From Negativicutes bacterium (GTDB lineage: Bacteria > Bacillota > Negativicutes > Anaeromusales > Anaeromusaceae), in the NCBI GenBank assembly GCA_009929485.1, contig SAAJ01000010.1:1-64000 (forward strand): a DNA stretch of 64,000 bases. The letters run 5' to 3'. Position 1 is the stretch's first letter. Every line of letters begins with the position of its first letter. The notes beneath the pieces were generated by a model. That model saw only the letters and a list, made by a program, of their open reading frames with translations. It did not search any database and had not been told where the DNA came from. The position numbers and the translations under genes are program-made. Shown here one piece after another: positions 1-4,990 of this stretch.

Positions 1-98
1 GGGGTTCCACCTGTTCCCATCTCGAACACAGCAGTTAAGCCCACATACGCCGAAAGTACTTGGCTGGAAGCGGCCTGGGAGGATAGGTAGTTGCCGGT
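1..98 (+). rRNA. rrf: 5S ribosomal RNA, 3' portion (5' end outside window)
   Basis: The window opens inside a 5S rRNA gene. The conserved stretches CCTGTTCCCAT, CGAACACAG, AGTTAAGCCC and the 3' TTGCCGG are all present in the right order and spacing. About 15-20 nucleotides at the 5' end are missing because the window begins there. A tRNA gene follows four bases later, as expected for the end of an rRNA operon. The exact 3' end is estimated. Confidence 0.93.
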
Positions 99-102
99 TT
101 AT

Positions 103-178
103 TCCTCGATAGCTCAATCGGTAGAGCACGCGGCTGTTAACCGCGGGGTTGTAGGTTCGAGTCCTACTCGAGGAGCCA
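103..178 (+). tRNA. tRNA-Asn (anticodon GUU)
   Basis: A full cloverleaf can be drawn: acceptor stem TCCTCGA (103-109) with TCGAGGA (168-174), anticodon stem CGCGG (129-133) with CCGCG (141-145), anticodon GTT at 136-138, and T stem GTAGG/CCTAC around TTCGAGT. The CCA tail (176-178) is encoded in the DNA. It lies directly behind the 5S gene and is probably processed from the same rRNA operon transcript. Confidence 0.97.
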
Positions 179-187
179 GTTTTATCG

Positions 188-214
188 AAGCCGTACATTA
201 GTACGGCTTTTTTT
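188..214 (+). terminator. Rho-independent terminator of the rRNA/tRNA operon
   Basis: A perfect 9-bp stem, AAGCCGTAC and GTACGGCTT, closes on the loop ATTA and runs into an unbroken T tract. It sits 10 bases after the tRNA CCA end. Confidence 0.93.
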
Positions 215-292: not shown

Positions 293-544
293 ATGATTGA
301 AATTGCCATTTGTGTAGGAAGCGCCTGTCATTTGAAGGGCTCTTACCAAGTGATGCACGCGTTTAAATCTCTTTTGGAACTGCACCGTTTGGAAGGACGA
401 TTGGTGGAGCTAAAAGGAGCTTTTTGTCAGGGAGACTGTACAGAGGGTGTCGTTGTTCATATCAATGGAGAGCGAATTACCCGAGTTTCACAAGATAAAG
501 TGTTTGAACTTTTTCAAGCAAAGGTGCTGGGGAGACAGTCATGA
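293..544 (+). CDS. Thioredoxin-like [2Fe-2S] ferredoxin (NuoE/HydC-like small subunit)
   Basis: An 83-residue protein with four cysteines in the pattern C7-x4-C12 and C45-x3-C49, the [2Fe-2S] signature of the NuoE C-terminal/thioredoxin-like ferredoxin family. It probably passes electrons to or from the hydrogenase-like protein encoded next. The full NuoE N-terminal helical domain is absent, so this is the stand-alone ferredoxin fold. AAGGAG lies 8 bases before the ATG. The stop overlaps the next start (ATGA), which implies translational coupling and a shared complex. Family assignment is firm; the redox partner is inferred from the neighbours. Confidence 0.85.
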   Translation: MIEIAICVGSACHLKGSYQVMHAFKSLLELHRLEGRLVELKGAFCQGDCTEGVVVHINGERITRVSQDKVFELFQAKVLGRQS

Positions 545-2250
545 ATATTATCCGTACGCTCAAGGTTAACTGCAAAGACTGCAATCGCTGTGTACGATCT
601 TGTCCGGTAAAGGCTATTGGCGTAAGCCGGCATCATGCGTATGTGTTGGAAGAACGGTGCATTCTCTGCGGGAAGTGTGTTGCCGAATGCCCGCAAAATG
701 CCAAGCAGATTCGCAATCAACTCACTGATGTACAACGCTGGCTTCAAGGAAAACGGCCGGTGTATTTAAGTTTAGCTCCTTCATTTCCCGCATTTCCGGT
801 TCTTGGTGCGGCGGAAACGCTGCCGGAACGTTTAGTTGCGTTAGGCTTTGCGGCCGTAGAGTGCACTACTGTGGGAGCGGATCTCATTATGGAAGAGTAT
901 CGGCATTTGGTAGAAACTAAGTCTCATCCGATTCTTTCTTCCTGTTGTCCTGTAACTGTCGATTTGGTTAATAAGTATTATCCTCAAGTTTCATCTTGGC
1001 TGGCGCCTGTGATTTCCCCCATGCAGGCTCATGCAAAGGATATAAAACAACGCTGTCCTGATGCTAAAGTTGTTTTTGTCGGTCCTTGTTTAGGGAAAAT
1101 GGGAGAATTGAAGGAACCTTTTAATTCGGTAGATGCTGTGCTAACTTTTTCACAGATGCAGGAATGGCTGCTGCAAAGCTCCGAAAATGCATTGGCGCAG
1201 GAAAATTGCTGGCGTGAAGGCGTTCATACTCGATCCTTTCCGCTCAGCAGCGGTATTACCCGCTCGTTTTTGGCTTGGGACGGCATGAGTGAAGACGTGG
1301 TTATTGCCGATGGCTTGGAACGTTGCACAGAACTGTTGCAAGGCTTGTGCCGACATGAGGTTCGGCCTCGTTTTGTAGAGCTCTTAGCTTGCCCTGGAGG
1401 ATGCTTAGGCGGCCCTCTGGGTGGTCAAGCTGATTGTCTGGCAGCGCGGCGCGAAGCCATTTTGCAGTATTGGCGCAAGGTAGAAGCCGAGCAGCCTTCG
1501 TTGACCAAGGAAAGGCCTTCTTTGGGCGTGACAAACGAAGTGGAATTGGGAAGAACGCAATTGCCAAGACCGACACAGTTTGCGGCGCCGCCAGAGACGG
1601 AGATTCGGGCGATTTTGAGCCAAATCGGCAAATATACCCAAGCTGATGAGCGGAATTGCGGCGCATGCGGCTATTCAACGTGCCGCGAGAAAGCTACTGC
1701 CGTATATTACGGCGTAGCGGAAACGACCATGTGCGTGCCGTATATGCGCTCCAAGGCGGAATCTTTTGCAAAAATTATTGTACGCAATTCTCTTAACGCT
1801 ATTATTGCCGTGGATTCCGATATGATCGTCCAGGAGTGCAACCCGGCGGCGGTGCATATGTTTTCAGGAAGACAGGCGTTGCGGCGGGGGCGTCCCTTAG
1901 GAAGTTATTTTGCGCCTGATCTTTTTATGGAGGCCTTGCAAAAGAATACAAAGCTGATTGGCAAGCGCGTCGAGTATCCAGAGCACAAATTGGTAACCGA
2001 GCAAATGATCTTGCCGGTTCCGGAGCACAATTTGGTTATTGGTATTATTACTAATGTAACAGCGCAAGAAAAGCGTCTTCAAGACTGGGAAAAAACGAAG
2101 GCGGAAACGATGGACAAAGCCAACGCCATTATTCGGCAGCAAATGCATGTCGCTCAGGAAATTGCCGGACTTTTGGGAGAAACAACAGCGGATACCAAAG
2201 TGGCGCTGCTTGAACTAATGTATCTGCTTCACGCCAAGGAGGAGCGGTAA
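541..2250 (+). CDS. [FeFe]-hydrogenase-like sensory protein with C-terminal PAS domain (HydS/HfsB-like)
   Basis: This 569-residue protein has two [4Fe-4S] ferredoxin clusters (C11, C14, C17, C21 and C40, C43, C46, C50). An H-cluster domain follows at about residues 75-310, with L1 SSCCP (C135, C136), L2 GPCLGKMGE (C183, K186, E189) and L3 LACPGGCLGG (C284, C288). Next comes an extra four-cysteine Fe-S domain (C373, C376, C381, C398) and a PAS-like domain at about 410-510, ending in a helical tail. Hydrogenases with this architecture belong to the putative sensory groups (C/D) and are typically encoded beside a PP2C phosphatase, as here. All H-cluster cysteine ligands are present, so H2 binding or turnover is plausible. 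Expected cytoplasmic. Signalling by PAS to the phosphatase is inference. Confidence 0.85.
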   Translation: MNIIRTLKVNCKDCNRCVRSCPVKAIGVSRHHAYVLEERCILCGKCVAECPQNAKQIRNQLTDVQRWLQGKRPVYLSLAPSFPAFPVLGAAETLPERLVALGFAAVECTTVGADLIMEEYRHLVETKSHPILSSCCPVTVDLVNKYYPQVSSWLAPVISPMQAHAKDIKQRCPDAKVVFVGPCLGKMGELKEPFNSVDAVLTFSQMQEWLLQSSENALAQENCWREGVHTRSFPLSSGITRSFLAWDGMSEDVVIADGLERCTELLQGLCRHEVRPRFVELLACPGGCLGGPLGGQADCLAARREAILQYWRKVEAEQPSLTKERPSLGVTNEVELGRTQLPRPTQFAAPPETEIRAILSQIGKYTQADERNCGACGYSTCREKATAVYYGVAETTMCVPYMRSKAESFAKIIVRNSLNAIIAVDSDMIVQECNPAAVHMFSGRQALRRGRPLGSYFAPDLFMEALQKNTKLIGKRVEYPEHKLVTEQMILPVPEHNLVIGIITNVTAQEKRLQDWEKTKAETMDKANAIIRQQMHVAQEIAGLLGETTADTKVALLELMYLLHAKEER

Positions 2251-3404
2251 TGCTGTTTCATGCGGATGTGGCGGTTCGGCAGCTTAATAAGCACGGCGAA
2301 GAGCTTTGCGGCGATCATGTAAACATTACGCGTACGGCGGATGACACCTTTATCGTTCTTTCCGATGGCTTAGGGAGCGGCGTTAAGGCTAATATTCTTG
2401 CTATTTTAACAACGAAAATTGCGTCTTCCATGTGCCGCAAGGGCATCGCCATGGAAGACGTGGTAGCCACGATAACAGAAACTTTGCCTGTTTGCCGTCA
2501 GCGAAAAATTGCTTATTCTACCTTGCATTTGATTCATTTGCAGGCGGATGGGCAGGCGAAAATTGTAGAATTTGATTGTCCGCAGACGTTCTTGTGTCGT
2601 GACGGCGTTGTGATTCCCGTACCTACGGAGGAAAAGGAAATTGCCGGTCGTCTTGTGCGCGAAGGATCACTGAGGTTGGTGGAAAATGATCTCCTTGTTG
2701 CCGTCAGCGACGGCGTCATTCACGCCGGCATCGGCGGCTTGCTGAATCTTGGCTGGGGGTGGGAAGGAATTGCCGAGCAATTGCGGCAGATCATGCTTCA
2801 ACCTGCGCCATGTGCGCGAGAAGTCAGCCAGAGTTTGATTTCCTGTTGCGAAGGCTATTATACGGGAAAACCAGGAGATGATTCTACGGTTGTAGCTGTA
2901 AGACTGCATCCGCCGCGTTGCCTTACGCTGATGGCCGGTCCTCCTCAAGATCGCCGCGCCGACTCCCGCGTAGTTTGGCGCTTGCTGAGCCAAACAGGGA
3001 AGAAAGCTATTGCCGGGGGTACGACGGCTCGGATTGTTAGCCGCATTACGGGACGTGAGCTGCGAGTGCTTGGCGTGTATGAGGACCCGCAAATACCGCC
3101 GACAGGAAAACTCGATGGTGTTGATCTGGTAACAGAAGGTTTATTGACGTTAAATGCCGTAGGAGAACGCTTATTATCTGAAGAGGGATTGCGTGCTTCT
3201 CGCAAACGGGATGGGGCGACTCTTTTGGCTCAGGAATTATTACAAGCAGATCGCATTACTATTTTGGCAGGCAAGGCGTTGAACGAGGCGCATGCACAGG
3301 CGCTGCACCTGCCGTTCCAAGTTCATTTAAAAAGTCAGGTGCTGCAGCGTTTAGCGGGGCAACTGGAAGCCCTGGGAAAAGCGGTGGTGTTGGAATGGTT
3401 TTAA
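2250..3404 (+). CDS. PP2C/SpoIIE-type serine/threonine phosphatase of the hydrogenase cassette
   Basis: Residues 1-220 form a SpoIIE-type PP2C domain with the metal-binding aspartates in GDHV (D22), SDGLGSG (D39), VAVSDG (D154) and PGDDST (D210, D211). The remaining roughly 160 residues form a second region that I do not recognise; it is conserved-looking and starts at the segment CLTLMAG. The start codon overlaps the stop of the preceding sensor gene (TAATG), so the two are made together. PP2C proteins beside PAS-hydrogenases, such as HfsC in Thermoanaerobacterium, are thought to relay the H2 or redox signal by dephosphorylating an unknown target. No cognate kinase or anti-sigma factor is encoded nearby. 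Confidence 0.87.
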   Translation: MLFHADVAVRQLNKHGEELCGDHVNITRTADDTFIVLSDGLGSGVKANILAILTTKIASSMCRKGIAMEDVVATITETLPVCRQRKIAYSTLHLIHLQADGQAKIVEFDCPQTFLCRDGVVIPVPTEEKEIAGRLVREGSLRLVENDLLVAVSDGVIHAGIGGLLNLGWGWEGIAEQLRQIMLQPAPCAREVSQSLISCCEGYYTGKPGDDSTVVAVRLHPPRCLTLMAGPPQDRRADSRVVWRLLSQTGKKAIAGGTTARIVSRITGRELRVLGVYEDPQIPPTGKLDGVDLVTEGLLTLNAVGERLLSEEGLRASRKRDGATLLAQELLQADRITILAGKALNEAHAQALHLPFQVHLKSQVLQRLAGQLEALGKAVVLEWF

Positions 3405-3487
3405 ATAGATTGGTGACTAGAAAGCGATAACGCTATTTGTAATGCAATGAAATGTGAATTGAATGAAAGAGGGTAGGTTCTAAAATC

Positions 3488-4990
3488 ATGGCGCATATAA
3501 CAGAGATTGTTTCGATTCGGCGGAGCGTATTGGCAGAATTGGCAAAATTAACTCGCGAGGGTAATTTAGTTGCTGAAATTGAAAATTCAGCGTTTAGTTT
3601 GGTCAGTGAAAACGGCAGCCGTTATCGTTGTTGCGTGCATAAAGAAAGGGCTGTGTTAAAGGAGCGCTTTAATTTGGCTATGGGGCAGGAAGTGGACATG
3701 CCCCTGGCGGAAGCTGCGCAGCGTACTTTGGCGGGGGAGTACGCCCAGATGCCGATTATCAGCGTCTTGCCTGAAGCCTGCGATCAATGTCCGATTGATA
3801 AGTTTTTCGTTACCAATGCCTGCCGTAACTGCATTGCCCACAATTGCAAAAACAGCTGCCCGAAAAACGCGATTATGATTGTGCAAAACCAGGCGTATAT
3901 CGATAAAACCAAGTGTGTGGAATGCGGTATGTGTAAGAAATCTTGTTCCTATGGCGCGATTATTGAAGTTAACCGTCCTTGCGAGGGCGCTTGCGAGCTC
4001 AAAGCCATCAAGGCTGGCTCTGATCGTAAAGCGGTTATTGATTATGATAAATGCGTCCAATGCGGCGGCTGTAAAGTCGCATGTCCTTTTGGAGCGATTT
4101 CCGATAGAACGTATTTGGTGCAGGTTCTGCGGGCCATTGATGCGGGGAAACAGGTGCATGCTTTGCTGGCCCCGGCTTTTATCGGGCAGTTTGGGGCTAA
4201 GGTGCAGCCTGGTCAAGTCATTGCGGGTTTGAAAAAAATCGGTTTTTCCGAAGTAGAAGAAGTTTCTTTTGCCGCTGATATCGTCACGCTTGAAGAAGCG
4301 AAAGAATTTGCTGAAACGGTGCCGCAAGAACGTCCTTTTATGACTACTTCGTGCTGCCCGGCTTTTGTGGGCATGGTGGATAAGCATTTGCCTCAAGTGA
4401 AAGAATTAGTGTCAAGCACGGTTTCCCCCATGATTGCCGCAGGCAAAGTAGTCAAGGAAAGAAATCCTGAGGCGGTTACTGTCTTTGTTGGGCCTTGCGT
4501 GGCCAAAAAATACGAAGCGGAAGTCAAAGGCCAAGGGGTCATTGACTATGTGCTGACCTTTGAGGAGCTGCAAGGGATTTTTGAGGGGCTGGAAATCGAT
4601 TTAAGCGCCATGGAGGCAGTTCCTTTTCAAACAACGGCTTCGCGGGACGGCAATATTTTTGCCAGAGCAGGCGGCGTGGAGCAGGCTGTTAAAGATACGG
4701 CGGCTCAACTGGCGCCAGACCTTGAAGTTTGCTCGCAACGCAAAGAAGGCTTGGGCGAATGCCGGATGCAGCTGTTGCTGATGAAAGCAGGGAAAGTTCC
4801 CGGGAATTTCTTTGAAGGCATGGCTTGCCAAGGCGGCTGCGTCGGCGGTCCGGGCTCTATTGCGGATTACCGAGTTACCAGCAAGCTGGTTGATAAATTT
4901 GGCGGCTCGGCGCAAGTGACCACGGCTCCTGAAAATGAGGCGGCCAAGGAAGCGGCGCAACAGCAAAAAAACTGGCATCATCACGCTTGA
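3488..4990 (+). CDS. [FeFe] hydrogenase, group B-like, monomeric with several ferredoxin domains
   Basis: A 500-residue hydrogenase. Residues 95-205 carry at least three [4Fe-4S]-type cysteine clusters, including C143/C146/C149/C153 and C189/C192/C195/C199. The H-cluster domain has L1 TTSCCPAFV (C289, C290), L2 GPCVAKKYE (C337) and L3 MACQGGCVGGPG (C447, C451). The Q in L3, and F instead of W after L1, are features of group B rather than the bifurcating or prototypical group A enzymes. It catalyses reversible proton reduction with reduced ferredoxin as likely donor. An 83-bp gap with a weak ribosome site separates it from the phosphatase gene, so it may have its own promoter. The maturation genes hydEFG are not in this window. 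Confidence 0.9.
   Translation: MAHITEIVSIRRSVLAELAKLTREGNLVAEIENSAFSLVSENGSRYRCCVHKERAVLKERFNLAMGQEVDMPLAEAAQRTLAGEYAQMPIISVLPEACDQCPIDKFFVTNACRNCIAHNCKNSCPKNAIMIVQNQAYIDKTKCVECGMCKKSCSYGAIIEVNRPCEGACELKAIKAGSDRKAVIDYDKCVQCGGCKVACPFGAISDRTYLVQVLRAIDAGKQVHALLAPAFIGQFGAKVQPGQVIAGLKKIGFSEVEEVSFAADIVTLEEAKEFAETVPQERPFMTTSCCPAFVGMVDKHLPQVKELVSSTVSPMIAAGKVVKERNPEAVTVFVGPCVAKKYEAEVKGQGVIDYVLTFEELQGIFEGLEIDLSAMEAVPFQTTASRDGNIFARAGGVEQAVKDTAAQLAPDLEVCSQRKEGLGECRMQLLLMKAGKVPGNFFEGMACQGGCVGGPGSIADYRVTSKLVDKFGGSAQVTTAPENEAAKEAAQQQKNWHHHA

Follow-up and report, generated by a model that had tools for sequence, protein, structure and literature searches.

A conserved C-terminal helix of HfsB as the putative link between an H-cluster sensor and the phosphatase HfsC in an hfsABCD cassette of a Negativicutes bacterium

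Introduction

How a hydrogenase-like protein could hand its signal on to a protein phosphatase is the question raised by a four-gene cassette near the start of contig SAAJ01000010.1 from a Negativicutes bacterium (assembly GCA_009929485.1). The window, i.e. the whole stretch of DNA that was analysed, comprises the first 64,000 nucleotides of the contig, and the cassette encodes, in a row, a [2Fe-2S] protein (HfsA), an H-cluster protein with a PAS domain (HfsB), a PP2C phosphatase (HfsC) and an [FeFe]-hydrogenase (HfsD). Signal transmission by sensory [FeFe]-hydrogenases has been stated to be unknown (PMC11376134).

The arrangement itself is already known, since HydDB lists [FeFe] group C3 as phosphatase-linked (putative), with genes for an H-cluster protein and a Ser/Thr phosphatase (PMC5037454), and since hfsABCD has been named in Thermoanaerobacterium. 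An earlier note, made from the letters of the window, had called the targets and chemistry of such an arrangement poorly described. The set is indeed poorly understood, but the class has been catalogued (PMC5037454) and knockout data exist (PMC5707799, PMC11837493). HydDB names the phosphatase linkage only, and what is added here is comparative evidence on how sensor and phosphatase may be coupled: a conserved tail at the end of HfsB, the co-inheritance of this tail with HfsC, and an exchange of the sensor in which the tail was kept. We propose on these grounds that HfsABC is probably a sensor-gated PP2C phosphatase, a split version of RsbU in which the HfsB tail supplies the regulatory helix in trans.

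Results

The HfsB tail and its co-inheritance with HfsC

Within roughly its last 40 residues HfsB has a helix with the motif QMxVAQEIA(G/S)LLGETTAETK, and this tail is the most conserved part of the protein, with a mean majority residue of 0.86 as compared to 0.50 for the H-domain and 0.42 for the PAS domain. In 80 named loci, gathered by HfsC peptide patterns and not by the tail, the tail-bearing gene lies directly upstream of hfsC in 78, the overlap most often being -4 or -1. The earlier note had thought it likely that a signal passes from the H-cluster through PAS to the phosphatase. All sequence evidence is compatible with this logic, but the conserved element that would face the phosphatase is the C-terminal helix following the PAS domain, and not the PAS domain itself.

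A 46-position profile of the tail, run against 398 genomes of the window's phylum, matched in 119 of them; the C-terminal domain of HfsC was found in 122, and 117 have both. The tail alone was found in two genomes, as a weak match in each, and the HfsC domain alone in five; the latter domain nearly always lies within a frame of about 380-405 residues. The genome of the window has one tail copy, and the sole other match in it is at chance level. Open frames of about 500 residues for hfsC were considered as HfsB-HfsC fusions and ruled out, as they proved to be separate genes or read-through from upstream.

An hfsC orthologue (48-98% identity) is present in 18 of 40 near-relative genomes, with the window's own genome counted. 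In the 17 loci besides the window, hfsB precedes hfsC in every case and hfsD follows it in 14, and given these loci the hfsB-hfsC-hfsD arrangement is not due to chance. Across the 80 loci hfsA-hfsB-hfsC is the constant part, followed by hfsD, by nuoE-nuoF-hydA or by neither. HfsD, counted in the earlier note as part of a four-gene cassette, is an exchangeable neighbour, with HydABC or nothing in its place elsewhere. Co-conservation in related genomes, named beforehand in the same note as a test, holds strongly in the near relatives, the 80 loci and the 398 genomes alike. The genes yebC-ruvAB, located downstream, are kept in near relatives only, and they were set aside as mere context.

Some irregular hfsB loci were also encountered. 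Three relatives carry a second, divergent copy with 34% identity (L036, i.e. G033:C74; G009:C18; G094:C1), and a matching hfsC copy was seen in G033 and G009. In one locus of the same species (L071, G040:C2) hfsB lies in two overlapping frames near residue 380, suggesting a frameshift or sequencing error, and the remainder of the gene upstream of about residue 380 has no match there. Giant frames apparently spanning hfsB in G001 and G040 are runs of N and not insertions.

Replacement of the sensor

What chiefly speaks for the tail as the site of coupling, in preference to the hydrogenase or the PAS domain, is that the sensor has been replaced while the tail was kept. In Desulfomonile-type loci (L112, L138 and L139, together with L268, L270 and L271 from a second search) the gene ahead of hfsC encodes a non-hydrogenase sensor with the same tail, a membrane protein of 766-796 residues with Cache-HAMP-receiver-PAS organization and without an H-domain. 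This gene overlaps hfsC by 4 bases in L112, L138 and L139, and hfsA is still found upstream of it. No PF02906 match, i.e. no recognisable [FeFe]-hydrogenase, was obtained in the three genomes searched, those of L112, L138 and L139. Among 345 genomes of the Desulfomonile-type phylum all seven tail-bearing loci adjoin hfsC, four with the Cache-HAMP-receiver-PAS sensor and three with HfsB. In a midpoint-rooted tree the Desulfomonile-type HfsC proteins form one clade (support 100/100) among the hydrogenase-linked ones.

Because the HfsA-(tail)-HfsC core exists in a clade without recognisable hydrogenase, H2 would be one possible input and not what defines the module. We give roughly even chances to the broader reading that the tail is a portable adaptor helix, plugging different sensors (the hydrogenase in Bacillota, the Cache-HAMP-receiver-PAS protein in the Desulfomonile relatives) into HfsC in trans, and that HfsA-tail-HfsC is a general redox-linked signalling core. 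A common protein of 286-288 residues, to which no identity was assigned, is encoded downstream of hfsC in two of these loci (L112:11206-12066 and L138:5270-6136).

The phosphatase HfsC

HfsC is a SpoIIE/PP2C protein by its Pfam match, and its predicted metal site (D22, D39-G40, D154-G155, D210, D211) is intact in the window and kept in 81 of 81 HfsC sequences. The best Protein Data Bank (PDB) match of its AlphaFold model is SpoIIE (5mqh, E 3.5e-15), and the protein fails the SpoIIE equivalog TIGR02865 (48.3 vs 490.8 bits). SpoIIE has a regulatory helix packed against its switch helices, and the linker of RsbU forms an activating coiled coil (PMC5468089; PMC12143880). The first PP2C strand in the HfsC model begins at residue 4, with no helical linker found in cis ahead of the PP2C domain, and HfsC therefore is without a SpoIIE/RsbU-like regulatory helix of its own. 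It has the PP2C fold and metal residues in common with these proteins, from which it differs by the missing N-terminal linker and by an extra C-terminal domain; helix control at the switch helices is a proposed analogy.

The C-terminal domain gave a confident model, but no PDB fold match at E<=0.001 with Foldseek, only weak Rossmann-like matches. No credible Pfam family was found for it, and a PDB-sequence profile search gave nothing at E<0.5. A likeness to methylglyoxal synthase (Foldseek probability 0.96, E 0.02) is weak and was kept as a lead only. That the domain serves solely for hydrogenase docking is unlikely, because HfsC of hydrogenase-free genomes keeps it. In one genus a stand-alone gene for this domain directly follows hydABC (L185:7623-8102, L186:6945-7415, L187:7599-8075).

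HfsA, HfsB and HfsD

The identities given to the genes in the earlier note are borne out by Pfam and NCBIfam matches for all four products (Table 1), and the hydrogenase described there as group-B-like belongs to group B1 (FeFe_hydrog_B1). All 61 aligned homologues of HfsA, drawn from 58 loci, have its four cysteines. In HfsB all cluster ligands appear intact: the H-cluster cysteines C136, C183, C284 and C288 are present and kept in 73 of 73 HfsB proteins, as are C373, C376, C381 and C398 of a Cx2Cx4Cx16C Fe-S motif (as described in PMC8163306) between the H-domain and PAS. The PAS domain of the window protein is below the Pfam cut-off (15.4 vs 23.1 bits), while PAS_8 is matched by 17 of 17 members of the HfsB family alignment at E<=0.1 (best 2e-7).

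The proton-transfer cysteine (C299 of CpI) corresponds to C135 in the window HfsB and is kept in 30 of 73 HfsB. Sensory hydrogenases of the TmHydS/TamHydS type lose this cysteine, whereas the window HfsB retains it and in this respect departs from them. By description, Ruminococcus albus HydS and TmHydS (M2f) likewise combine an H-domain, an extra Fe-S cluster and PAS, and the former also has a phosphatase subunit (PMC6776011).

Layout of the cassette and neighbouring genes

By gene order, motifs and domains the cassette is assigned to the canonical hfsABCD set, HydDB group C3 "phosphatase-linked". The resemblance to Thermoanaerobacterium suggested in the earlier note was confirmed in gene order and domains: T. 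saccharolyticum and T. thermosaccharolyticum, compared by description, have in the same order a 2Fe-2S protein, a PAS-bearing hydrogenase, a phosphatase and a ferredoxin-linked hydrogenase (PMC5707799, PMC11837493). The window set differs in coming from another class (Negativicutes-like) and in the retention of C135.

All four open reading frames are intact and, as had been noted, lie in a row with short overlaps among the first three, amounting to 4 bases (ATGA) between hfsA and hfsB and 1 base (TAATG) between hfsB and hfsC. The 83-base gap between hfsC and hfsD contained no stem comparable to the terminator-like one ahead of hfsA in a stem search of the window. A 5S rRNA and tRNA-Asn (window 1-175) precede hfsA, and in several draft relatives hfsB starts less than 1 kb from the contig start, as expected with an rRNA operon upstream there too.

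Table 1. Features of the hfsABCD cassette and its surroundings, with window positions unless a locus is given.
Feature	Position	Strand	Description	Evidence
hfsA	293-544	+	83-residue thioredoxin-like [2Fe-2S] protein; Cys C7, C12, C45, C49	2Fe-2S_thioredx (PF01257), 36.1 bits (cut-off 24.8)
hfsB	541-2250	+	569-residue putative H-cluster sensor: two N-terminal [4Fe-4S] motifs, H-domain, Cx2Cx4Cx16C Fe-S motif, PAS, putative C-terminal coupling helix	Fe_hyd_lg_C (PF02906), 135.6 bits; FeS (PF04060), 34.8 bits (cut-off 23); PAS
HfsB C-terminal tail, putatively coupling (KANAIIRQQMHVAQEIAGLLGETTADTK...)	2113-2247	+	Top-conserved HfsB region	Adjoins hfsC in 78/80 loci
hfsC	2250-3404	+	384-residue SpoIIE-type PP2C phosphatase without N-terminal linker, with C-terminal domain	SpoIIE/PP2C (PF07228), 54.8 bits (cut-off 25)
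HfsC C-terminal alpha/beta domain	2925-3401	+	About 160 residues, family not assigned	pLDDT 90.6
hfsD	3488-4990	+	500-residue monomeric [FeFe]-hydrogenase, group B1	TIGR04105, 573.3 bits (cut-off 450)
Terminator-like stem	187-210	+	Downstream of tRNA-Asn, upstream of hfsA	10-pair stem, then T run
TnpB-like genes in relatives	L085:11160-12716, L098:11200-12681, L101:7110-8603, L103:7423-8973, L140:11170-12690, L093:11183-12577, L097:9401-10795			

In seven of the 80 loci a relative of TnpB (464-518 residues) is encoded right after hfsC. The RuvC-I aspartate is missing in all seven proteins and the other two catalytic sites vary. A conserved structured RNA lies downstream; folding of five of its sequences showed pairs that covary, and Rfam gave no match at gathering thresholds. 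These proteins resemble the TldR RNA-guided repressors (PMC13418256). Guide matches within their own loci were rejected, being just 13-14-base matches or hairpin arms. No TnpB-like gene was found in the window genome at the threshold used.

Discussion

In the proposed mechanism, HfsB would receive electrons from H2 at its H-cluster, or from the ferredoxin pool with HfsA as redox partner, and these would alter the Fe-S chain and the Cx2Cx4Cx16C cluster, and the altered Fe-S state would move the PAS domain and the helix that follows it. The C-terminal tail of HfsB would dock on HfsC, which has no N-terminal regulatory helix in cis, and the docked tail would shift the switch helices, at HfsC residues 45-78, in a way that either creates or abolishes the second metal site. 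HfsC would act like SpoIIE/RsbU with the activating helix coming from a second protein, and HfsA, HfsB and HfsC would presumably interact physically, possibly in a stoichiometric complex as the earlier note had supposed. The target may be a Ser/Thr phosphoprotein governing the hydrogenase and fermentation balance, its phosphorylation state being the output.

Mutants of Thermoanaerobacterium lend support to this mechanism, as deletion of hfsA or hfsB alters both hydrogenase activity and the expression of adhE. When either gene is deleted, more ethanol is obtained and adhE is expressed more strongly, and when hfsB alone is deleted hydrogenase activity rises; the high ethanol yield requires wild-type hfsC and hfsD (PMC5707799). 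A number of observations weigh against it. When hfsD alone was restored in T. thermosaccharolyticum lacking hfsABCD, the high-ethanol phenotype was the same as with an hfsB deletion (PMC11837493), so that what this phenotype requires is HfsD in the absence of HfsB, and not HfsC. That neighbours in an operon occur together is in part trivial, the genomes are not independent, and no natural HfsB-HfsC fusion was seen among the loci collected. The Desulfomonile-type loci share ancestry, being a single clade, and the three hydrogenase-free genomes are metagenome-assembled; at least two of these assemblies, with sizes of 2.7 and 3.3 Mb, may be incomplete. Finally, four STAS genes were found in the window genome, but not one adjoins the hydrogenase genes found there, and a STAS substrate beside these genes was rejected for that reason.

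It is possible, if unlikely, that HfsB is mainly a redox sensor of ferredoxin or HfsA and not of H2, with the H-cluster as a vestige or an electron valve. HfsA is kept where the hydrogenase is absent, the proton-transfer cysteine is found in just 30 of 73 HfsB, and those sensory enzymes that have been characterised are of very low activity (PMC11376134), all in line with such a role; yet the four H-cluster cysteines are invariant (73 of 73), and because of this the cofactor itself is under selection.

We find it rather doubtful that HfsABC instead controls the neighbouring catalytic hydrogenase (HfsD, or HydABC elsewhere) by contact or dephosphorylation, with no sigma-factor or transcriptional pathway involved. 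The rise in hydrogenase activity on deletion of hfsB only (PMC5707799) and the ΔhfsB phenotype obtained with hfsD in the absence of hfsABC (PMC11837493) would both be accounted for, as would the hfsD or hydABC genes flanking hfsABC in many loci and the stand-alone HfsC domain after hydABC. On the other hand, hfsC is in many loci not accompanied by a hydrogenase gene, Desulfomonile-type genomes keep HfsA-tail-HfsC including the C-terminal domain with no recognisable [FeFe]-hydrogenase, and the shifts in adhE transcript in hfsA/hfsB mutants suggest some gene regulation. That HfsABCD is a catalytic multi-subunit hydrogenase with an incidental phosphatase is very improbable in spite of the lowered hydrogenase activity on hfs deletion in Thermoanaerobacterium (PMC5707799), given that HfsD is a complete group B1 enzyme by itself, that the phosphatase residues are invariant and that hfsA and hfsC also occur with an unrelated sensor.

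A candidate for an opposing kinase is found elsewhere in the window genome (G000:C36; L067:5210-13921), where an RsbW-like ATPase, a 456-residue TamHydS-like H-cluster protein and DRTGG and PHP proteins are encoded in one cluster, together with nuoE/nuoF/hydA-type genes (hydABC) and a Rex-like gene. TamHydS (M2e) is likewise associated with a histidine-kinase-like ATPase (PMC8163306). The ATPase and DRTGG genes flank the TamHydS-like protein in 9 of 9 other loci checked, and the latter protein is present in 33 of 37 genomes with hfsB as compared to 37 of 163 without it, although these genomes are not independent. Unlike HfsB, the TamHydS-like protein has no PAS domain and its gene lies at a separate locus; it is proposed only as the opposing arm of a candidate kinase-phosphatase pair tied to H-clusters, in which the RsbW-like ATPase may oppose HfsC.

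If the reading of the tail as a portable adaptor is true, it would explain the way in which the group C3 sensory [FeFe]-hydrogenases transmit their signal, and a near-invariant helix of some 25 residues that is retained even after exchange of the sensor makes the question testable. Roughly 30% of the genomes sampled from the window's phylum have a set of the hfsABC type. Deletion of hfsB is already in use for higher ethanol yield, and the output of the module would matter for fermentation and H2 turnover in anaerobes.

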